Shown here: piece by piece, positions 19,011 through 34,050 of the stretch
Layout: each line of letters opens with the position of its first letter
Position numbering within the stretch: the first letter of the stretch is position 1
Assembly: GCA_022652985.1 (NCBI GenBank)
Contig: JALCRY010000005.1
Span: forward strand, 1 to 64,000
Reading direction: 5' to 3'
Origin: Eubacteriaceae bacterium
GTDB lineage: Bacteria > Bacillota > Clostridia > Peptostreptococcales > Anaerovoracaceae
DNA length: 64,000 nucleotides
Made by a program: the position numbers and the translations under genes
The notes under the pieces: generated by a model
What the model saw: only the letters and a program-made list of their open reading frames with translations
Told to the model about the DNA's origin: nothing
Databases searched by the model: none

Positions 19011-19364
19011 TCACGTATTCATTACGTTATATACGAGCTGCCCGGCAAAAGTCACAGCCAGGACCAAGAGCACGACAAGCGAAATATTCGCGACTTTGTC
19101 GAACGACCTTTCCTGCGCTTCAGACAGTCCGCCGGTTTTCTGCACCTTTGACGCCAGCGAAGCGAGATACAGCCAGTAGAATACGTAATAGACGAGACAT
19201 GCGACCATTACCGCATAGCATATCCGCGCCCACTGCACATTTCCGGGTCCGCCCATCTGACCGTAGTCTATCCAGATCAGCGCCGCGAAAAGCACCGCCC
19301 AGATGACGCACCTCTTCGGACCCATATAAATATTATCCTTCATTTTCTTCTTTAATCCGTTCAT
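19011..19364 (-). CDS. Small membrane protein of unknown function
   Basis: 117-aa ORF with several hydrophobic segments, overlapping the upstream regulator stop by 4 nt. Confidence 0.6.
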   Translation of the reverse strand: MNGLKKKMKDNIYMGPKRCVIWAVLFAALIWIDYGQMGGPGNVQWARICYAVMVACLVYYVFYWLYLASLASKVQKTGGLSEAQERSFDKVANISLVVLLVLAVTFAGQLVYNVMNT

Positions 19365-20698
19365 TTTCCCTTCTCTTTCATCTTGCCGATGCCGTATTTG
19401 CGCATCAGCCTTGACGCCTTTGTCTGCGACATTCCCATCGCGCCGGCTATCTTGTACGAACTTCCGTACTGCCGGTACGCCTCTTCAAGCATGCGCCTTT
19501 CATAAGTTTCCACAGCATCGTCGAAATCCGGCGGCAGCTGCGCGTCGAAACTGCCGAGCGGCGCTATTATCGTATCCGGCAGATCCGCTGTTTCAATGAC
19601 GTTTTCCTTCGAAGTGACTATCACCCGCTCGACCGCATTCTGCAGTTCGCTGACATTGCCCGGCCACTCGTATTTCCGCAGCGCGTACCGCGCCTTGTCC
19701 GAAAAACTCTTGTTCATGTGATACTGGTAATTGAACCTGGCAGCGAAATAATCCAGGAGAACATCAAAATCCTCCTTCCGCTCCTTGAGCGTCGGTATGT
19801 TGAACTCGATGACTCTGAGGCGGTAATACAGGTCTTCTCTGAACCGTCCGTCTTTGATCTGGTTCTCGAGGCTCATGCTCGTGGCGGATATTATCCTCGC
19901 GTTCACTTTCCTCTCCTTGGCCGCGCCGAGCGGCACATAAGTCCCGTCCTGTATCATCCGCAGGATCTTTCCCTGCACGGACAGAGGCATCATCCCGATT
20001 TCATCTATAAACAGAGTCCCGCCGTTCGCGATCTCGGCCAGTCCCGCTTTGCCGGTCCCGCCTATGTCAGGCCCGGCGCCCGGAAGATAGCCGAATAAAA
20101 CTGCCTCCATCTGATTCTCGGGAACAGCGGCGCAGTCGATCGCCACGAATTCTCCCTTCGATCTTTTGCTGCTCTCGTGGATGAATTTTGCGAGAGTGCT
20201 CTTTCCCGATCCCTTTTCACCGGTGATCAGTATCGTGGAGTCGAATGTCGAGATCCTCTCTATCGTCATCTTTATTTCATTCATCTTCTGACTGATGAAG
20301 ACCATGCTGTCGCCGGTCCGTTCTTCGCCGGAGAAATAATCGGCAGGCTCGTCGGAAGTCCTTCTGTCGTCGTAGATGGCTTCGATCACATACTTTATAT
20401 CGCCGTCGCTGTCCGTGACAGGTGTAGTAATGATGGCGTAGTCCTCCCCGGACTTGTCCTGCTTTTCCACAATTACAGTCCTTTTCAGCTCAAGCACGCG
20501 GGGGAGCGCCGTTATCCGGTCGACATACACCGGATCGGTATCATAAAGACTTTTTCCTTCATATGAGGCGGCGCCTTCCATAAACAAATCGGCAAAACCG
20601 CGGTTGCAGTAAATGATATTGCGTTCCGTGTCAAATACACACACGCTCACCTGAAGTGTGTCTATTATATTTTTGAAGAATGTGTTTTCATCCGCCAT
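19361..20698 (-). CDS. PAS-AAA+-HTH (TyrR/NtrC-type) transcriptional regulator with altered GAFTGA loop
   Basis: Walker A GEKGSGKST, GGTLFIDEIG, C-terminal HTH; loop reads FGYLPGAGPDIGGTGKAG instead of FGYxxGAFTGA. Start taken at MADENTF. Confidence 0.85.
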   Translation of the reverse strand: MADENTFFKNIIDTLQVSVCVFDTERNIIYCNRGFADLFMEGAASYEGKSLYDTDPVYVDRITALPRVLELKRTVIVEKQDKSGEDYAIITTPVTDSDGDIKYVIEAIYDDRRTSDEPADYFSGEERTGDSMVFISQKMNEIKMTIERISTFDSTILITGEKGSGKSTLAKFIHESSKRSKGEFVAIDCAAVPENQMEAVLFGYLPGAGPDIGGTGKAGLAEIANGGTLFIDEIGMMPLSVQGKILRMIQDGTYVPLGAAKERKVNARIISATSMSLENQIKDGRFREDLYYRLRVIEFNIPTLKERKEDFDVLLDYFAARFNYQYHMNKSFSDKARYALRKYEWPGNVSELQNAVERVIVTSKENVIETADLPDTIIAPLGSFDAQLPPDFDDAVETYERRMLEEAYRQYGSSYKIAGAMGMSQTKASRLMRKYGIGKMKEKGK

Positions 20699-20832
20699 AG
20701 TATATTTCTCCTGCTGAAATTGTATCATTGGAAAGACCCGATTACAAGATTTTAGCGCCGAAGACACTTTACACACCGCCTGCCAGCCTATAAAATGTTA
20801 ATGTCAGAGTTTTTTACGGAGGGAGACACATC

Positions 20833-22245: not shown

Positions 22246-23166
22246 TCAAAAATTTCTTTCGAGCAGTCTGACCAGTGTGCAGACTGTTTCGTTTCTCGGC
22301 ACCGGATATCCGGCTGCCCGCGCGCGGCGGACGATCTCGCCGTTCAGGCAGTCTATTTCCGTGCGCCTGCCGTTCATTATGTCCTGAGCCATCGACGGGA
22401 AATGCCCTTTATGCGTGACCATTATCGTGCGGGCGCGGGCGAAAGCCGCCTCCCGGTCGACATTCACGCCGAGCTTTTCCGCCAGTCCCAGAGTCTCCTC
22501 CATGATATCGAACACGAGCCTTTCCCCGTCTTCGACTTCACAGAATCTGCTCTGCGGCAGACGCGTAAGAGCGGACACCGGATTGAACCCGCTGTTGAGA
22601 GCGGCCTTCCCCCAGATGGCGCCGTACACATCATCCGCGATTTCCGCAGTCAGTCCGCAGGCGTTCATCACGCCGCACACCTCGTGCAGTAATGCGCAGT
22701 CACTTTCATCGGCCATGCCTATGTACGCCTTTCTGTCTGTGCCCATCGTTCTGATCTCCCCCGGGCCTGTGACCGCCCCCGGCATCGTGAGCGCCCCGCA
22801 GATTATATGATCACGCGGAACGAACTTCTCCGTGCGTTCAACGTTCCCGAGCCCGTTCTGCAGAGTCATGAGATAAGTATCGCCGCCGATCATCCCGCGG
22901 CATTTTTCCAGCACAGCGGACGAGTCCTGCGCCTTGGTGAACAGGATCACCAGATCGAACGGATCATGAAGCTCACCCGCCATCGCAGTTCTGACCTTTA
23001 CGTATATATCCTTCTCATCCCACAGCATATGAATGCCGTGCAGGCGGATCGCCTCTTCAGTTTCTCTTCTGCCGGCGGTGACCATCGTCACGTCTTCGCC
23101 TCCGTCCGCGAGACACGCGCCGAAAAGCATCCCCATCGCGCCCGTGCCTATTACTGCAATTTTCAT
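22246..23166 (-). CDS. panE: 2-dehydropantoate 2-reductase
   Basis: IAVIGTGAMGMLFGACLADGGEDV...TLQNGLGNVE...AIWGKAALNSGFNPVSALT. Confidence 0.88.
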   Translation of the reverse strand: MKIAVIGTGAMGMLFGACLADGGEDVTMVTAGRRETEEAIRLHGIHMLWDEKDIYVKVRTAMAGELHDPFDLVILFTKAQDSSAVLEKCRGMIGGDTYLMTLQNGLGNVERTEKFVPRDHIICGALTMPGAVTGPGEIRTMGTDRKAYIGMADESDCALLHEVCGVMNACGLTAEIADDVYGAIWGKAALNSGFNPVSALTRLPQSRFCEVEDGERLVFDIMEETLGLAEKLGVNVDREAAFARARTIMVTHKGHFPSMAQDIMNGRRTEIDCLNGEIVRRARAAGYPVPRNETVCTLVRLLERNF

Positions 23167-23238: not shown

Positions 23239-23267
23239 TTTACATCCCCTGCCGAAAGTGTTAATAT
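23239..23267 (+). promoter_or_regulatory. sigma-A promoter of the aro operon leader
   Basis: TTTACA-N17-TAATAT, placing the transcript start just upstream of the leader ORF. Confidence 0.65.
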
Positions 23268-23301
23268 AGGGACAATCACTAAAGAAAGGACGCACTTACA
23301 A

Positions 23302-23388
23302 ATGCATATTTCAGCATTTACAGCAGCATACGCTTACTATTATTCTTACTACTATTTCGGTAAGAAGAGTTTGGCTGTTGTGAAATGA
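23302..23388 (+). CDS. Tyr-rich leader peptide of the aro operon (28 aa)
   Basis: ATG CAT ATT TCA GCA TTT ACA GCA GCA TAC GCT TAC TAT TAT TCT TAC TAC TAT TTC GGT AAG AAG AGT TTG GCT GTT GTG AAA TGA = MHISAFTAAYAYYYSYYYFGKKSLAVVK; 7 Tyr in a 9-codon stretch plus 2 Phe. Confidence 0.85.
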   Translation: MHISAFTAAYAYYYSYYYFGKKSLAVVK

Positions 23389-23427
23389 CGTATGCTGTCG
23401 TCCCGATAACATAATTGAGATCATTGT

Positions 23428-23458
23428 CCGCAGGCGAACTCAGCCTGCGGATTTTTTT
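23428..23458 (+). terminator. Intrinsic terminator (attenuator) upstream of aroF
   Basis: CCGCAGGC-GAACTCA-GCCTGCGG followed by ATTTTTTT, ~55 bp upstream of the aroF ATG. Confidence 0.88.
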
Positions 23459-23512
23459 ACGTCATCACAAACCATTATATAAAGCCGGGGAAGCCGGCAG
23501 GAGGAAAGTAAA

Positions 23513-24538
23513 ATGATAATAATACTGAGGGAGAATCCCGAACAGAAGCAGCTGGAAAATCTCGTCTCATGGCTGAAGAGCATGGGCCTTGATATCCATT
23601 ACAGCAAGGGCGTCAACAAAACCATCATGGGTCTTATCGGCGATACCGCTTCTGTAGACATGGATCTGATCCAGGCGCTCGACATCGTCGAAAAGGTTAT
23701 GAGAGTCACTGAGCCTTACAAGAACGCCAACAGGAAATTCCATCCGCAGGACACAGTCGTCACCGTCGGCAGCGGCGAGAACGAAGTGAAGATCGGCGGA
23801 GGAAATTTCCAGATCATCGCCGGCCCGTGTTCGGTTGAAAGTGAAGAGCAGATCATCGAAGTAGCCAAAGCCGTCAAAGAGGCGGGCGCGGGACTGATGA
23901 GAGGCGGCGCCTTCAAGCCGAGGACTTCGCCTTACTCGTTCCAGGGACTGCGCGGTGAGGGACTCGATCTTCTCAGCCTGGCCAAGAAAGAAACCGGTCT
24001 CCCGATCGTAACTGAAATCATGGATCTGTCCCAGCTCGATCTCTTCGAAGACGTCGATGTCATCCAGGTCGGAGCGAGGAACATGCAGAACTTCGAACTC
24101 CTGAAGGAACTCGGTCATCTCGACAAGCCGATCCTGCTCAAGCGCGGACTCTCCAGCACGATCGAAGAGCTCCTCATGAGCGCGGAATACATCATGTCGG
24201 GCAGGAACCAGAATGTCATCCTCTGTGAAAGAGGCATAAGAACATTCGAAACAATGACCAGAAACACTCTCGACCTTTCCGCCATTCCGGTGCTCAAGGA
24301 AAAGACACACCTGCCGATCATCGTCGACCCGTCGCATGCTACCGGCATCAACAGCCTTGTAAAGCCTATGGCCATGGCGGCCACAGCGGCAGGCGCGGAC
24401 GGACTTATGATCGAAGTGCACAATGACCCGGCACACGCGCTCTGCGACGGACCTCAGTCGCTCAGACCGGAGCAGTTCGCAGACGTCGTCAAAGCGGTCG
24501 AGGCGATACGCCCGTTCGCATTCGGAGTACAGCAGTAA
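23513..24538 (+). CDS. aroF: 3-deoxy-7-phosphoheptulonate synthase with N-terminal ferredoxin-like domain
   Basis: IIAGPCSVESEEQI, RGGAFKPRTSPYSFQGL, VDPSHATG motifs. Confidence 0.95.
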   Translation: MIIILRENPEQKQLENLVSWLKSMGLDIHYSKGVNKTIMGLIGDTASVDMDLIQALDIVEKVMRVTEPYKNANRKFHPQDTVVTVGSGENEVKIGGGNFQIIAGPCSVESEEQIIEVAKAVKEAGAGLMRGGAFKPRTSPYSFQGLRGEGLDLLSLAKKETGLPIVTEIMDLSQLDLFEDVDVIQVGARNMQNFELLKELGHLDKPILLKRGLSSTIEELLMSAEYIMSGRNQNVILCERGIRTFETMTRNTLDLSAIPVLKEKTHLPIIVDPSHATGINSLVKPMAMAATAAGADGLMIEVHNDPAHALCDGPQSLRPEQFADVVKAVEAIRPFAFGVQQ

Positions 24539-24555: not shown

Positions 24556-25398
24556 ATGATGATAGGAGTAGTCGGTCTCGGCCTCATCGGCGGATCGATG
24601 GCAAAAGCAATAAACAGTCTGCAGGACCATTCGGTATACGGATACGATATAGATGAAACGGTCATCCGCAAAGCTGTCCTGGTCAACGCCATAGAAGAAG
24701 AACTGAAACCGGATATGATCCCTCTGTGCGATCTGATAATCATCGCGCTCTATCCGAAGGACGCGGTAGCTTTCGTGGAAAAATACCGGGATGATATCAA
24801 GGAAGGTTCTGTTATAATGGACACATGCGGAGTGAAGAAATGCGTATGTGACGGCATTGAACCGATCGCCCGAGAAAAAGGTTTCTGGTACATCGGCGGA
24901 CATCCGATGGCGGGCATAGAACACGCCGGCTTTGACCACGCGAAAAAAGCCCTCTTCCAGAATGCCTCGATGATATTACTGCCGATGAAACGCACGCCTA
25001 TCGAGGTCGTCGACATCATCAAGCAGCTGGTCGAAAAGATCGGTTTCACTAACGTCGAGATCACGGAAGCAGACGAACATGATGAGATCATCGCCTTCAC
25101 TTCACAGCTTGCGCACGTGCTTTCGAGCGCGTACATCAAAAGCCCTACGGCGGAAAAACACAGAGGTTTTTCTGCGGGGAGCTACAACGACATGACGCGT
25201 GTGGCCAATCTGAACGAGGACATGTGGACGGAACTGTTTCTCGAGAATCCCGACAATCTCGCCAACGAGATCGACGGACTGATCGAAAGACTGCACGAAT
25301 ACAGCGCCGCGATCAGAGACAATGACGAGACACGCCTCCACGATCTCCTGAAAGCAGGACGCGAGCGCAAGACCCTTATAGACAAAGAAACGTTCTGA
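24556..25398 (+). CDS. tyrA: Prephenate dehydrogenase
   Basis: GVVGLGLIGGSMAKAI, GGHPMAGIEHAGFDHA, AHVLSSAY motifs. Confidence 0.9.
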   Translation: MMIGVVGLGLIGGSMAKAINSLQDHSVYGYDIDETVIRKAVLVNAIEEELKPDMIPLCDLIIIALYPKDAVAFVEKYRDDIKEGSVIMDTCGVKKCVCDGIEPIAREKGFWYIGGHPMAGIEHAGFDHAKKALFQNASMILLPMKRTPIEVVDIIKQLVEKIGFTNVEITEADEHDEIIAFTSQLAHVLSSAYIKSPTAEKHRGFSAGSYNDMTRVANLNEDMWTELFLENPDNLANEIDGLIERLHEYSAAIRDNDETRLHDLLKAGRERKTLIDKETF

Positions 25399-25411: not shown

Positions 25412-26473
25412 ATGAACAAGATAACGATCAATACCGCTGTACCGTACGATGTAGTAATGGAAAGAGGTCTGCTGTCGAGAGCGGGCGAACTCGCGCTTGG
25501 TGTTTCGGACCAGTGCAAGGTGTGCATCGTCACCGATGAAAACACGCACAGGCTGTACAATGACACCGTCGCGGAATCTATGGCGCTCAGCGGATTCGAC
25601 GTTTACAAAATAACTTTCCCGGGCGGGGAGATGACAAAAACGATCGACTATTTCAGCACTCTGCTCGAATTCCTCGCCGAAAACCAGTTCACCAGAAGCG
25701 ACATGCTCGTTGCACTCGGCGGCGGAGTGATAGGCGATCTGACAGGTTTTGCCGCCGCTTCGTATCTCAGAGGCGTAGGCTTCATACAGATCCCGACCAC
25801 GCTTCTGGCGGCAGTCGATGCCTCTGTGGGAGGCAAGACGGCGATCAACCTGGTCGCGGGGAAAAATCTGGCCGGTGCCTTCCACCAGCCGAAGCTGGTC
25901 ATCTACGACCCGGCGACCGCGGAAACTCTCTCGCACGATATTTTCCTGGACGGGCTGGCGGAAGCGGCCAAATCCGGAGTCATTGAAGACAGGGAGCTTT
26001 TTGAATACATACTGGCAGCTGACGAACCGCCGTTCAGCGAGTTTGTGATGAGACTCGTCGACAGCTCGGTCAGGGTAAAGGCGAAGCTGGTAGAACAGGA
26101 TGAGCACGACGGCGGAGTCAGGCAGCTCCTCAACTTCGGGCATACATCGGCGCACGCCATCGAAAGGCTGAGCAATTACGACATCAGCCACGGACATGCC
26201 GTCGCGACAGGCATGCTCATAGCCTCCAAAGCCGCGCTCGTAAACAAATGGTCCCGTTCAGACTGTTATTCTCAGATAAAAACTTTCCTCGTGAGATACG
26301 GTTATGATACGGAATGCAGATTCACTCCGGAACAGATGGCTGCGGCAGCATCCGTCGACAAGAAGAGAAGAGGCGACACAATATCGGTCGTCATTCCGCT
26401 CGACATAGGAGAATGCGCGCTCATGGACATCCCGGCCTCCGGTCTGGTCGATTTTTTCAAAGCAGGTATATAA
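25412..26473 (+). CDS. aroB: 3-dehydroquinate synthase
   Basis: ALGGGVIGDLTGFAAASYLRGVGFIQIPTTLLAAVDASVGGKTAINL...LNFGHTSAHAIE. Confidence 0.95.
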   Translation: MNKITINTAVPYDVVMERGLLSRAGELALGVSDQCKVCIVTDENTHRLYNDTVAESMALSGFDVYKITFPGGEMTKTIDYFSTLLEFLAENQFTRSDMLVALGGGVIGDLTGFAAASYLRGVGFIQIPTTLLAAVDASVGGKTAINLVAGKNLAGAFHQPKLVIYDPATAETLSHDIFLDGLAEAAKSGVIEDRELFEYILAADEPPFSEFVMRLVDSSVRVKAKLVEQDEHDGGVRQLLNFGHTSAHAIERLSNYDISHGHAVATGMLIASKAALVNKWSRSDCYSQIKTFLVRYGYDTECRFTPEQMAAAASVDKKRRGDTISVVIPLDIGECALMDIPASGLVDFFKAGI

Positions 26474-27700
26474 ATGAACATCAGGATAACACCACATGTA
26501 CTTAAAGGAAATATAGAGGCCGTGCCTTCCAAGTCCCAGGCGCACAGAGTCCTTCTCGCAGCAGCTCTAGCAGCAATGCAGAGCGGTGAGGAAACTGGGT
26601 TCCGCATCAGCGGGACTTCCGAAGACGTCAGGACGACAGCACGGTGTATAAAAGCGCTCAGAGAGGCGGCGGCAATTCCCCGGAAACCTCTGCTTACAGA
26701 CTGCGGCGAATCCGGCACGACGCTGAGATTCCTTCTGCCGGTATGCGCGGCGCTCGGAATAGACACGACATTCACCGGACACGGCAGACTGCCCGCAAGG
26801 CCGCTTTCTCCGCTCAGAGAAGAGATGGAAAGGCACGGTGTGACATTTTCCGACCCCGACGACAAAGGTTCATCCGCAGCTGCGCCTATCTGCAGGATAC
26901 AGGGCAGACTGAGCGGCGGAGAATTCCGGCTGGCCGGCAATGTCAGCTCGCAGTTCATCAGCGGGCTCTTTTTTGCTCTGCCGCTTCTGAAAGAAGGAGG
27001 CTCCGTCGTCATTACGACCGAACTGGAATCCACGCACTACATCGATATGACGCTGGATGTCCTCAGAGACTTCGGGATCGTGATCGAGCTCGCAAACAAA
27101 GGCCCTGACGGCATCGGCAATACTTATACTGCAGCCGGCGGACAGCATTTCGTTTCGCCGGGAACAGTCGAACCGGAAGGAGACTGGTCAAACGCGGCAT
27201 TCTGGCTCGCGGCCGACAGCCTCGGGTCGGACATCGGCATTACCGGCCTCAGTCTCGGCTCGTCTCAGGGCGATAAAGAAATACTCAGAGTGATCAGAGA
27301 CATCGAAAGCAGCGACGTCATCGATGCGAAAAATATCCCGGATCTCGTACCGATCATAGCGGTCCTGGCTGCTGTGAAACCGGGCACACGCACGATTACC
27401 AACGCGGCCAGACTGCGCCTCAAGGAAAGCGACCGGCTCGCGTCCATGGCAAAATGCCTGAGCGCGCTCGGAGCTGACATAACAGAACGTCCGGAAGGAC
27501 TTATTATCAGAGGCGCCGGCAGACTGACCGGCGGGACCGCGGACGGATGCGGGGATCACCGGGTAGTAATGGCCATGGCGATAGCCGCAACTGTTGCGGA
27601 CGGTCCGGTCATCATAAAAGGCGCGGAAGCGGTCGCCAAATCATACCCGGGATTTTTCAGGGACTTCCGGAAGCTCGGCGGCATTGCGGAACGGATTTAA
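26474..27700 (+). CDS. aroA: 3-phosphoshikimate 1-carboxyvinyltransferase (EPSP synthase)
   Basis: PSKSQAHRVLLAAALA, DCGESGTTLRFLLPV, RLKESDRLASMA, GCGDHRVVMAMAIAA. Confidence 0.95.
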   Translation: MNIRITPHVLKGNIEAVPSKSQAHRVLLAAALAAMQSGEETGFRISGTSEDVRTTARCIKALREAAAIPRKPLLTDCGESGTTLRFLLPVCAALGIDTTFTGHGRLPARPLSPLREEMERHGVTFSDPDDKGSSAAAPICRIQGRLSGGEFRLAGNVSSQFISGLFFALPLLKEGGSVVITTELESTHYIDMTLDVLRDFGIVIELANKGPDGIGNTYTAAGGQHFVSPGTVEPEGDWSNAAFWLAADSLGSDIGITGLSLGSSQGDKEILRVIRDIESSDVIDAKNIPDLVPIIAVLAAVKPGTRTITNAARLRLKESDRLASMAKCLSALGADITERPEGLIIRGAGRLTGGTADGCGDHRVVMAMAIAATVADGPVIIKGAEAVAKSYPGFFRDFRKLGGIAERI

Positions 27701-27712
27701 GGAGGTCACGGC

Positions 27713-28792
27713 ATGCAGTCGCAGTTCGGAAACAATGTCAAAGTTACAATCTTCGGAGGCTCCCACGAGCCTGAGATCGGATGTATCATAGAAGGTCTTC
27801 CCGCAGGTGTCATGTCTGAAATAGACATGGACGAGCTGCAGGCGTTCCTCGACAGGCGCGCTCCGGGCCGGAACGAATTCTCTACGCAGAGAAAAGAGTC
27901 CGACGTACCGCTGGTAAGATCCGAGGATCCCCTGACGCTGGTCATCCGCAATAAAGATCAGCATCCGGGCGATTACAAGAAGCTTGCCTCGGTCCCGAGA
28001 CCGGGACATGCTGATTTCACAGCCCGCGTAAAATACGGCGGTGCACTTGAAATGTCGGGAGGCGGCCCTTTCTCGGGACGCATGACGGCCCCGCTGTGCA
28101 TCGCGGGCGGGATCGCGAAACAGCTGCTGAAGAAGAAAGGCATTACTGTATGCGCAAGGATAAACGCCATACACGGCATATGCGACATACCGCTCGACCC
28201 CGTGAACATTACCGCGGCAGTGCTCGAGGAGATCGCTGCCAAGGATTTTCCTGTCTTTGACGACGAAGCGGGCATGGAGATGAAGGACGAGATCAGGACC
28301 GCAAGGGCCGAAGGAGATTCCGTCGGCGGCATCGTTGAGGTCTATGTGCTCGGATGTCCGGCCGGTGTCGGCGGACCTATGTACGACGGCGTCGAATCCG
28401 CGATGGCTGCTGTTTTCTTCGGGATACCTGCTGTGAAGGGCGTGGAATTCGGCGCCGGTTTCTCAGCCGCCTTTATGAGAGGCTCCGAGAACAACGACCC
28501 GTTCTGCCTCAGAGACGGCAAAGTCGCGACGATGACCAACAACTGCGGCGGGATACTCGGCGGCATAACAGACGGCATGCCGATAATCGCCCAGCTGGCG
28601 TTCAAGCCGACACCGTCGATTTCTATCGAACAGGATTCGGTGGATCTCGATAAGATGGAACCCGCAAAACTCGTTATCGGAGGAAGGCACGATCCGTGCG
28701 TCGTACTCCGCGCGGTGCCCGTGGCCGAAGCGGCAGCGGCGCTCGCGATACTTGATCTGATGTCAGAGGAGAATGCACATGGAAAAAAATAA
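27713..28792 (+). CDS. aroC: Chorismate synthase
   Basis: FGNNVKVTIFGGSHEPEIGCIIEGLPAG, GRMTAPLCIAGGIAKQLL, NNCGGILGGITDGMPI. Confidence 0.95.
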   Translation: MQSQFGNNVKVTIFGGSHEPEIGCIIEGLPAGVMSEIDMDELQAFLDRRAPGRNEFSTQRKESDVPLVRSEDPLTLVIRNKDQHPGDYKKLASVPRPGHADFTARVKYGGALEMSGGGPFSGRMTAPLCIAGGIAKQLLKKKGITVCARINAIHGICDIPLDPVNITAAVLEEIAAKDFPVFDDEAGMEMKDEIRTARAEGDSVGGIVEVYVLGCPAGVGGPMYDGVESAMAAVFFGIPAVKGVEFGAGFSAAFMRGSENNDPFCLRDGKVATMTNNCGGILGGITDGMPIIAQLAFKPTPSISIEQDSVDLDKMEPAKLVIGGRHDPCVVLRAVPVAEAAAALAILDLMSEENAHGKK

Positions 28793-29048
28793 TCTCGACC
28801 TCCTCCGCGAGGAAATAGACGCGATCGACACTGAATTGATCGAGCTCTTCAAAAGGCGTCTCGGCACGGCCGGCCGCATCGCGGAATATAAAAAGGCAAA
28901 CGGACTGCCCGTAGCCGATGAGAAACGCGAAATGAAGGTACTCGAAAAGATAGCGGAAAAGGCGGGTGCGGAATACGCGGAATACGCGCAGGAACTTTAC
29001 CGCACGATGTTCAGAGTCTGCAGAGAATATGAAAGCAGAGGGATGTGA
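28779..29048 (+). CDS. Chorismate mutase (AroQ type)
   Basis: LREEIDAIDTELIELFKRRLGTAGRIAEYKKANGLPVADEKREMKVL; overlaps the aroC end. Confidence 0.88.
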   Translation: MEKNNLDLLREEIDAIDTELIELFKRRLGTAGRIAEYKKANGLPVADEKREMKVLEKIAEKAGAEYAEYAQELYRTMFRVCREYESRGM

Positions 29049-29049
29049 A

Positions 29050-30309
29050 ATGTCTTACGGACTCGTCGGTGAAAAACTCGGACACAGCTATTCGAAAATA
29101 ATACATGAAAAGCTCGGGCTCTACAGCTACGGGCTTTTTGAGGTGCCGCGCAGTGAGTTCGGCGCTTTCATAGACGCGCGCGGATACAGCGGACTAAATG
29201 TCACAATTCCGTACAAGCAGGAAGTCATAAGCCATCTGGACAGCATCGACGCGGCGGCAAAGGAGATCGGCGCGGTGAACACGCTCTGCTTCCTCAGCGC
29301 AAACGGGACCGCGGCCGGAGATATTCTGACCGGGGCCAATACAGATTATTACGGCTTCCTTTATATGGCGGACAGGGCCGGGATCGATTTTGCGGGACAG
29401 CATGTCCTGGTCCTCGGCACCGGCGGTGCGAGTCTCATGGTGCAGAAGGCAGTAATGGACAAGAACGCGAAGTCGATCACTGTCGCCTCAAGGTCGCAGC
29501 ACGCAGGTGTGGTCACATATGATGAACTTTCCGCTGACAGCGCGCTGCGCCGGTCTGTCGGCATCATCGTGAATGCGACGCCTGTCGGAACATACCCGGA
29601 CAACTATGCCTCAGTCCTGGATCCGGGCGATTATCCGTCATGCGCGGGAGTGCTCGATCTGATCTACAACCCGTTCCGGACCAGACTGCTCCTCGAAGCC
29701 GAGGCGCATCATATTCCCAGCTCCAACGGACTCCCTATGCTGGTCGCGCAGGCTGTGAAATCCGCTGAACTCTGGACCGGCAGAAAACTCATGGACAAAA
29801 CCGCCGCTATTATCGCGGAGCTTAAACGCGAGCTCGGTAATATTGTCCTGACCGGGATGCCGGGATGCGGAAAATCTACTGTGGGCCGCGCGCTTGCAGA
29901 CCTGCTCGGCCGTAAAATGATCGACACTGACGAAGAAATAGAGAAACGCACCGGCAGGCATCCTGCCGAAATAATAAACGAAGACGGCGAAGCCGCTTTC
30001 CGCAAAATCGAAACAGAGATCATCAGAGACATCTGCCGGGAAAACAGCCTGGTCATATCGACCGGCGGCGGCGCGGTCCTGCGGCAGGAAAATGTCGACG
30101 CTATGCGCCAGAACGGGACCGTGTTCTTCATAGAAAGAAAAATTGAGAATCTGGCCGCCGACAAAAGGCCGCTGTCCGGAGACCTGGAAAAACGGCGCGC
30201 GCTGTACGGCAGAAGGCTGCCTATGTACATGAACGCCGCCGATCATACAGTCGACAACAACGGCTCTGTGGAAAAAACCGCAAAAGCAGTCATCGCTCTG
30301 CTGGGCTGA
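29050..30309 (+). CDS. Bifunctional shikimate dehydrogenase-shikimate kinase (AroE-AroK fusion)
   Basis: N-terminal YGLVGEKLGHSYSKIIH...GLNVTIPYKQEV; C-terminal NIVLTGMPGCGKSTVGRALADLLGRKMIDTDEEIEKRTG...VISTGGGAVLR. Start at 29050. Confidence 0.92.
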   Translation: MSYGLVGEKLGHSYSKIIHEKLGLYSYGLFEVPRSEFGAFIDARGYSGLNVTIPYKQEVISHLDSIDAAAKEIGAVNTLCFLSANGTAAGDILTGANTDYYGFLYMADRAGIDFAGQHVLVLGTGGASLMVQKAVMDKNAKSITVASRSQHAGVVTYDELSADSALRRSVGIIVNATPVGTYPDNYASVLDPGDYPSCAGVLDLIYNPFRTRLLLEAEAHHIPSSNGLPMLVAQAVKSAELWTGRKLMDKTAAIIAELKRELGNIVLTGMPGCGKSTVGRALADLLGRKMIDTDEEIEKRTGRHPAEIINEDGEAAFRKIETEIIRDICRENSLVISTGGGAVLRQENVDAMRQNGTVFFIERKIENLAADKRPLSGDLEKRRALYGRRLPMYMNAADHTVDNNGSVEKTAKAVIALLG

Positions 30310-32020: not shown

Positions 32021-33970
32021 TTATTTTTCGTTAAGCTTGCGCCATAATGTCGTTTTCCCGATGCCCAGCTTTCTTGAAACTTCGTCCTGATCACTGCATC
32101 TGTCCATCTCCTGCTGTATCACGGATTTCTCAAATTGCGCCACAGCGCCTTTCAGCCCGTGTTCAAAAGAAATATTCACACTCCACTGCGGCTGGTTTTG
32201 CGCCGATTCTACCAGTAAAGTCTTTTCAATGCTGTCATCAAATTCCGAAAGAAAAGATGTAAAGATCTGCTCTTTTTCCAGCTTGATCCCTTTGCTCACG
32301 CTGCTGAGAACGACTAACCGTTCCACTATATTCTGCAGTTCTCTGACATTTCCCGGCCAGCTGTAATCAATAAGCCATTGCAGGTATTCATCCCAGCCAT
32401 CAGGCAGACCGTTCATATAATTGACGGCGTAATTCTCAGCCAGCGGTTTTATATCAGAGCGGCGCGCGCGCAGAGGCGGAATGATAAGATTGAACACGTT
32501 TATCCGATAGTACAGATCTTCTCTGAATTCTCCTTTGCCGACTTTTTTCAAAAGGTCATGATTGGTTGCGCTGATGATCCTGACATCGATAGAAATGATT
32601 TTGCTGCCTCCGACCCGCATTATTTCACGCTCCTGGATCACCCTAAGCAGTCTGGCCTGAAGTTCAAGCGGGACTTCTCCTATCTCATCAAGAAATAAGG
32701 TGCCGCAGTCCGCAAGTTCGAATAAGCCCTTCTTGCCCTGTTTCCGCGCACCGGTAAAAGCACCTTCCTCATATCCGAATAGTTCACTTTCCAGAAGTTC
32801 CGCCGGTATGGCCGCGCAGTTTACGGCCACGAAAGGTCCGTCGGCCCTGCCGCTTTCATTATGAATGCCCTGCGCAAACATTTCCTTGCCGGTACCAGAT
32901 TCTCCTTCGATCAGAACACTGGCATCGGAATGCGCGATCAGAGCAGCCATATCTTTGACCTTATTCATCCCCTTGTCGCAGGTGATGATATCATCCAGAT
33001 AATGTCTGGCTTCAAACCCCCTTGTATGGATCTCATGACGTATCTGTTTCTGCATCTCCTGGATCTTCGTAACATTTTCAAATGTGCTCACGACGCCGAC
33101 AAATTTATTATCGCGTATGATCTGCCTGTGGCTTGTAGCCAGAAGTTCCCTCTTATGCTTTTTTACATAGCTTATCTCCGTCAGCTCCCGCGAAAAAACT
33201 TTCCGGTATGACTCATCTTCCAGTGCATTGCTTCCCATGGTGTCATCGTTCTTCTGCCTAGGCGCATCCAGAAATGCAGCAGCCGGGTCGTTGCAGATAA
33301 TGATATTCTTTTTATCATCCGTAACTATCACGCCTTCCGACAATGAATTGAAAGCCGCTTCCAGACGCGCCGCATTATCTTTCTGATTTTGTGATTCCCT
33401 CAGGATATCGATCGTCTCTTCAAATGCTTTATGAACGCTATATTCTCCTGCACTGACTTCAAGGCCGTTCAGACCGAGTGAATTGGCATACCTGACAGCG
33501 ACATTTCCTCCTATGACTGTCCTGATATGGTTTTCCATGGCATCATTTACCGCTTTAAAGATGTCTCCCTCATTTGTGAATGTATATTGTACGATCCTTA
33601 CCCCGTACATTTTTTCTATATCTCTGATATTCGGTATGTCGGCTCTGTAATGGATAAACGCGGCAGTTTTGACTGAAGGCGGCAGCTGATCGATCACCTG
33701 GAGTACGTCGAACGGGGTTATCGGAATAGTAATGACCGGGATATTTACTACCTTCCGTATGAATGCAGCTGTCCCGCCGCGGCTCAATATAGCATCTACT
33801 TTCGTTTCTATTTCCAGAGCTTTCACCGCAGCATCATCGAATGACGCGTAATAATCAAGTGCCTCAACGCCGTTTTCTTTAGCGACTTTTTTGAATATTT
33901 CCGACATCATAGGGTATGTCGCGATCAGCGCCAGTGTCTGTTTCTGCATAAAATTATTTTTATTATCCAT
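32021..33970 (-). CDS. sigma-54 activator, PrpR_N-PAS-AAA+-Fis (regulator A)
   Basis: PrpR-like N-domain ([18 protein letters not shown]...DAILSRGGTAAFIRK), [53 protein letters not shown]-terminal Fis-type HTH. Start taken at MDNKNNF (ORF extends to 34039). Confidence 0.88.
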   Translation of the reverse strand: MDNKNNFMQKQTLALIATYPMMSEIFKKVAKENGVEALDYYASFDDAAVKALEIETKVDAILSRGGTAAFIRKVVNIPVITIPITPFDVLQVIDQLPPSVKTAAFIHYRADIPNIRDIEKMYGVRIVQYTFTNEGDIFKAVNDAMENHIRTVIGGNVAVRYANSLGLNGLEVSAGEYSVHKAFEETIDILRESQNQKDNAARLEAAFNSLSEGVIVTDDKKNIIICNDPAAAFLDAPRQKNDDTMGSNALEDESYRKVFSRELTEISYVKKHKRELLATSHRQIIRDNKFVGVVSTFENVTKIQEMQKQIRHEIHTRGFEARHYLDDIITCDKGMNKVKDMAALIAHSDASVLIEGESGTGKEMFAQGIHNESGRADGPFVAVNCAAIPAELLESELFGYEEGAFTGARKQGKKGLFELADCGTLFLDEIGEVPLELQARLLRVIQEREIMRVGGSKIISIDVRIISATNHDLLKKVGKGEFREDLYYRINVFNLIIPPLRARRSDIKPLAENYAVNYMNGLPDGWDEYLQWLIDYSWPGNVRELQNIVERLVVLSSVSKGIKLEKEQIFTSFLSEFDDSIEKTLLVESAQNQPQWSVNISFEHGLKGAVAQFEKSVIQQEMDRCSDQDEVSRKLGIGKTTLWRKLNEK

Positions 33971-34050
33971 ATTAATTATCTCCTCTGCGCTGATACTAAA
34001 ACGAGAAAGCACAGCAGCCTGCGCTTTCTCTGAACACACTCCCGGGATGA

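Follow-up and report, generated by a model that had tools for sequence, protein, structure and literature searches.

The window analysed here, that is, the whole stretch of 64,000 nucleotides from an Eubacteriaceae bacterium (contig JALCRY010000005.1), carries on its forward strand a cluster of genes for the common aromatic pathway. Pfam confirms the order aroF-tyrA-aroB-aroA-aroC given in a preliminary description of this DNA, and adds an aroE-aroK fusion. The first of these genes, aroF (23513-24538, +), encodes a DAHP synthase (DAHP_synth_1, 9.7e-80, together with a ferredoxin-like domain) and would be the first to be regulated by the leader described below. It is followed by tyrA (prephenate dehydrogenase; 24556-25398, +), aroB (3-dehydroquinate synthase; 25412-26473, +), aroA (EPSP synthase; 26474-27700, +) and aroC (chorismate synthase; 27713-28792, +). 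The aroE-aroK fusion, coding for shikimate dehydrogenase and shikimate kinase (28966-30309, +), is the probable last gene of the operon, and its listed GTG start gives it a possibly spurious N-terminal extension. The gene upstream of the leader (22246-23166) lies on the opposite strand, and hence neither the promoter nor the terminator of the leader belongs to it. Two large proteins encoded on the reverse strand flank the region (19361-20776 and 32021-34039), and their translations suggest features of PAS/AAA+ sigma-54-dependent activators.

The interval upstream of aroF opens with a sigma-A-like promoter (TTTACA-N17-TAATAT; 23239-23267, +), proposed from its consensus match only (9 of 12 positions, with a TG before the -10 element). 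The sequence AAAGGA (23285-23290, +), 11 nt before the ATG, reads as the probable ribosome-binding site of a 28-codon leader ORF, computed directly at 23302-23388 (+; ATG at 23302, TGA stop at 23386-23388), the product of which would be MHISAFTAAYAYYYSYYYFGKKSLAVVK. Seven Tyr codons fall within codons 10-18 (23329-23355, +), namely at codons 10, 12, 13, 14, 16, 17 and 18; the last of them occupies 23353-23355 and is followed by Phe19. When the 300 nt upstream were dinucleotide-shuffled 300 times, no shuffle contained a short ORF with the density of eight Tyr/Phe in 12 codons seen here. The ORF is thus short, looks translated and bears a run of codons for Tyr, an end product of the operon, and an intrinsic terminator sits between it and the first structural gene, aroF. 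This terminator (23426-23458, +) comprises a 10-bp stem and a 7-nt loop, the hairpin GTCCGCAGGC-GAACTCA-GCCTGCGGAT (23426-23452), and then a T-run. In relatives, both the Tyr/Phe run and the terminator are found at the same places. When the sequence was read again, the ORF, the promoter-like site and the terminator were all located where the preliminary description had put them.

Four strands can be computed directly in this leader. Strand 1, the protector (23304-23332, +), is defined by the minimum-energy fold, duplex energy and co-evolution, and lies upstream of the first Tyr codon, which it overlaps. Strand 2, GAGTTTGGCTG (23367-23377, +), is the 5' strand of the antiterminator and lies within the leader ORF, downstream of the last Tyr codon and ahead of the stop. 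Strand 3, CAGGCGAACTC (23431-23441, +), is the 3' strand of the antiterminator and covers part of the 5' arm and of the loop of the terminator, the 3' arm of which is strand 4 (23443-23452, +). Strands 2 and 3 pair at 10 of 11 positions, and the resulting antiterminator competes both with the terminator hairpin and with the upstream protector helix 1:2. The preliminary description had been unable to resolve a clear antiterminator by eye; folding and co-evolution reveal that there is one, formed by GAGTTTGGCTG and CAGGCGAACTC. A different antiterminator, found by hand at the outset and pairing GCTGTCGTC (23393-23401) with the terminator loop, was dropped because folding and comparison favour GAGTTTGGCTG with CAGGCGAACTC. 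In the minimum-energy fold, a strand 1 free of the ribosome pairs with strand 2 and with the segment just after it. The complementarity between CAGCATACG (23324-23332) and CGTATGCTG (23389-23397) reported earlier does exist, and represents an alternative register of this 1:2 helix, of which the minimum-energy fold takes a longer, slightly shifted version. The leader RNA as a whole folds at -61 kcal/mol (z -7.0), whereas shuffles average -36.3 +/- 3.5 and none of 200 is as stable, and the 1:2 duplex reaches -27.3 kcal/mol (z -3.6 vs shuffles). For the 2:3 duplex, the advantage of the window's copy over shuffles is no more than moderate (z -2.0).

The effect of a translating ribosome was computed directly by folding the RNA ahead of it for every codon position, on a transcript that ends just before the 3' arm of the terminator. 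With the A site at codons 3-18, the window's leader forms the full antiterminator (12.5 expected pairs); this number is 10.5 at codon 19, 6.3 at codon 20 and 0.5 at codon 21, and no pairs are left at the stop codon. A stalled ribosome thus leaves strand 2 fully free up to the last Tyr codon and no further. A ribosome at the start codon only leaves 2.5 antiterminator pairs, because strand 1 then holds strand 2. In folding, the leader thus behaves as an attenuator of the trp/phe type, its antiterminator being present as long as the ribosome has not moved past the last Tyr codon, and lost thereafter. The same pattern extends to 99 leaders, in which the mean number of antiterminator pairs is 11.4 with the ribosome stalled mid-run, 5.1 without ribosome and 5.2 with the ribosome at the stop codon (Wilcoxon p about 1e-16 for the difference with ribosome position). 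As judged by folding only, a stall frees strand 2 and a ribosome at the stop codon masks it. For the full transcript, equilibrium folding always favors the terminator over the antiterminator, so that the decision of the switch, if it operates like the established attenuators of the trp/phe type, must be kinetic.

We infer from sequence and folding that the leader is transcribed, that its ORF is translated and that the ribosome stalls on it, and it is very probable that the leader acts as a trp/phe-type transcription attenuator in which the ribosome gauges the supply of charged tRNA-Tyr, and possibly also that of tRNA-Phe. According to this model, RNA polymerase would start near 23275, with a ribosome following on the leader ORF. 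If Tyr-tRNA were scarce, the ribosome would stall within codons 10-18 and cover strand 1, leaving strand 2 free to capture strand 3 as it emerges; the terminator would then be blocked and aroF-tyrA-aroB-aroA-aroC-aroEK would be transcribed. With plentiful Tyr-tRNA, the ribosome would reach the stop codon and mask strand 2, strand 3 would pair with strand 4 and transcription would end at about 23458. Should no ribosome be present, strand 1 would tie up strand 2 and termination would be the default outcome.

The mutual exclusion between antiterminator and terminator, and between protector and antiterminator, is computed directly and apparent both in folding and in the joint evolution of the strands. 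Since spacing and sequence are too variable between subgroups for a covariance model, we applied an alignment-free strand-swap test, in which each strand 3 is paired with its own strand-2 region and with those of all other leaders. In 62 non-redundant leaders, own 2:3 partners pair at -14.9 kcal/mol and swapped ones at -11.05 kcal/mol (z -11.8), and the same test yields z -10.9 for 1:2 and z -27.9 for 3:4, which serves as the positive control; 0 of 5000 permutations reach the 2:3, 1:2 or 3:4 values. Pairings that the model does not predict give no signal in these 62 leaders (1:3, z 0.2; 4:2, z -0.4). The result is repeated in 30 separate leaders, with z values of -5.5 for 2:3, -10.0 for 1:2 and -14.9 for 3:4, and of -0.5 and 1.1 for the 1:3 and 4:2 controls. 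The permutations ignore relatedness, but relatedness is equally present in the control pairings, which remain at zero. The signal is less strong when each locus is tested against shuffles individually, with p <= 0.05 at 30 of 59 loci for 2:3 and at 22 of 59 for 1:2. Covariation across relatives had been proposed as a check on the leader, and the swap test answers it for the antiterminator, since 2:3 co-evolves in both sets (62 + 30 leaders).

The extent of this design among relatives was assessed in other genomes, at 79 aroF loci for which sufficient upstream sequence was available, by searching within 300 nt upstream for a short ORF with at least six Tyr/Phe in 12 codons. Such an ORF precedes aroF at 63 of the 79 loci, whereas the reverse strands give 4 hits in 79 and shuffled sequences 13 in 395. 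It is found again in 40 of 58 aroF upstream regions from order- and phylum-level samples (same density cut, with Trp also counted). The conservation of Tyr runs in homologous aro leaders, on which the preliminary description had made its proposal depend, is thus borne out in the form of a Tyr/Phe run. In total, about a hundred sampled relatives present the same design before aroF, including culturable ones such as Oscillibacter valericigenes (L046) and Angelakisella massiliensis (L028), and a strong terminator follows the leader in most relatives with a leader ORF. As DNA, the leader is recognizable in one same-genus genome only (79% identity), where the homologous leader is MQIATFTAAYAYYYSYWYTDKTSLAAAK; the architecture is therefore kept while the sequence changes, and the relatives had to be found by protein-anchored searches on aroF. 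Among the aroF upstream regions examined, no leader was found at most aroF copies on contigs labelled as Spirochaete, Treponema or Bacteroidaceae, nor at second aroF paralogs adjoining aroE-aroK/pheA. Aromatic leader ORFs do precede aroF on Lentisphaerae-, Thermoguttaceae- and Victivallales-labelled contigs (L035, L040, L062), which points to misbinned contigs or horizontal transfer.

These comparisons also bear on two other readings of the locus. That the leader ORF is there for its product, a peptide with a function of its own or an unrelated small protein, with the hairpin as an ordinary terminator, might be suggested by the motifs that some leader subgroups share around the aromatic run (AAEY, FGKA). 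However, outside that run the peptides are highly variable, both in sequence and in length (about 15-55 aa), the conserved flanking codons fall where strands 1 and 2 must pair, and the terminator cannot serve the upstream gene, given the orientation of the latter; we consider this reading highly improbable. Much the same low probability attaches to translational coupling or Rho-dependent polarity as the output in place of intrinsic termination, because nearly every relative has a strong intrinsic terminator behind its leader, co-evolution with strand 2 involves precisely the 5' arm of that terminator, and the hairpin leaves the aroF ribosome-binding site uncovered.

In the Firmicutes, where T-boxes are common, control by a T-box, a riboswitch or a TRAP-like element, with an incidental leader ORF, has also to be weighed. 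The window's own genome (G000) contains five T-box candidates (L084, L085, L086, L087, L088), below the curated cut-off but with E 9e-11 or better, which precede asnB, valS, a trpB-like gene, leuA and ileS; none is at aro. No Rfam family (release 15) is detected in the window at the gathering threshold, and at E up to 10 the leader yields only unrelated chance matches, with no T-box among them. The T-box covariance model (RF00230), with its specifier loop and T-box bulge, finds no counterpart at the leader, nor do the models for Phe_leader, Trp_leader and the other Rfam leaders. Among relatives, the first 20 loci contain no Rfam family, and 20 further loci contain one T-box and one cobalamin riboswitch, neither of them in an aroF leader. 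The T-box that would have spoken against a Tyr-stall leader is hence missing both from the window's leader and from the aroF leaders of 40 relatives' loci. Together with the recurrence of the aromatic codon run in relatives without other DNA similarity, this renders control by such an element extremely improbable, and supports ribosome-mediated attenuation by a Tyr-rich leader, as initially proposed, as the best reading of the Tyr/Phe runs and the co-evolving antiterminator. With five candidates elsewhere and none at aro, the organism seems to rely on T-boxes where several other amino acids are concerned, and to control its aro operon through a leader peptide.

Regarding the amino acid sensed by the attenuator, the window's leader has seven Tyr and one Phe in its densest 12 codons, at the Tyr-rich end of the range, whereas most relatives' leaders mix Tyr and Phe about equally and some add Trp; within a family of aromatic leaders, the window's copy therefore stands at the Tyr-rich extreme. 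Tyr makes up a share of 0.53 of the run in the 69 leaders that precede operons containing tyrA and of 0.40 in the 20 others, a modest link (p = 0.012) in a statistic that ignores relatedness. An all-Phe leader, MNNLYFAAVFFFFFGFFFFKKDVFCCGRFR, precedes an aroF-aroB-aroA-pheA cluster without tyrA in another genome (G033; L122 / L147), and can be regarded as a naturally occurring version of the window's leader with its control codons swapped. In other families of the order, aroF is preceded by a second leader subtype (L161, L163-L165, L148, L152-L155, L157, L158), which combines codons for Phe, Tyr and Trp, e.g. YSFFYFMFWGFYFSAGYFFYK, and some genomes with this subtype harbor two tandem aroF copies with one leader each (L152, L153).

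It is possible, though on balance unlikely, that the attenuator is real but senses aromatics generally, or mainly Phe, and that its Tyr richness reflects drift within a Tyr/Phe code. The even mixture of Tyr and Phe in most relatives and the Phe/Tyr/Trp subtype within the same order are congruent with such drift, as is the Corynebacterium glutamicum aroR leader, which contains Phe-Tyr-Phe but is reported to respond to Phe, not Tyr (PMC11802643). On the other hand, general or Phe sensing fits poorly with the seven-to-one excess of Tyr in the window's leader, with the presence of tyrA in its operon, with the Tyr-dominated run YAYYYSYWY retained in the same-genus leader and with the all-Phe leader before a pheA cluster that lacks tyrA. 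Judging from its codons, Tyr is likely the main signal of the window's leader. More broadly, there is an even chance that each leader has its proportions of Tyr, Phe and Trp codons matched to the genes that follow it, across a large, uncatalogued family of aromatic attenuators in the Clostridia and their relatives, with the window's copy being Tyr-specific; leaders would then be Tyr-dominated before aroF-tyrA, all-Phe before the aroF-pheA cluster and composed of all three aromatics in another subtype.

The common aromatic pathway of many Clostridia, including gut, rumen and digester organisms, is thus probably controlled by leader-peptide attenuation and not by T-boxes, even where, as in the window's genome, T-box candidates are present for other amino acids. 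The natural series of Tyr-, Phe- and Trp-biased leaders on the same gene makes the relationship between codon choice and signal specificity directly testable, and the data would support a new Rfam-type entry and the annotation of about a hundred unannotated leader ORFs.

A Tyr-stall leader was initially deemed notable in the Firmicutes. This has to be tempered by the aroF leader peptides already described in Gram-positive bacteria, in C. glutamicum (aroR) and Acholeplasma (uORFC-13-1). The aroR-aroF attenuator of C. glutamicum (Neshat et al. 2014, as described in PMC11802643 and PMC11525245) likewise places an aromatic-codon leader peptide upstream of a DAHP synthase gene under ribosome-mediated attenuation, but it is actinobacterial and contains Phe-Tyr-Phe only, whereas the window's leader is clostridial, with seven Tyr codons and an operon that includes tyrA. 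The uORFC-13-1 motif of Acholeplasma aroF, with 24 representatives from Acholeplasma and environmental sequences only, shares a predicted short upstream ORF with aromatic codons (at least one Phe) and a terminator before aroF (PMC8632094). Its mechanism was only suggested, with no four-strand model, and it is by the text description of that motif only that the window's leader is set apart from it (PMC8632094). Beyond aroR and uORFC-13-1, the open-access literature searched contains no Tyr-rich aro leader in the Clostridia, and the window's leader belongs to a large family absent from that literature and from Rfam release 15. Leader-peptide attenuation where T-boxes would be expected has precedents within the Firmicutes in the leader peptides reported for hisS/hisZ (PMC2965389) and in the Leu-rich attenuator of Staphylococcus aureus ilv (PMC5794164), although amino acids and genes differ. 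The type of mechanism is already known, since the enterobacterial pheL-pheA and trpL-trpE attenuators, which differ in genes, phylum and codons and whose Rfam models (Phe_leader, Trp_leader) do not match here, follow the same four-strand logic of protector, antiterminator and terminator, with the control codons in the leader.
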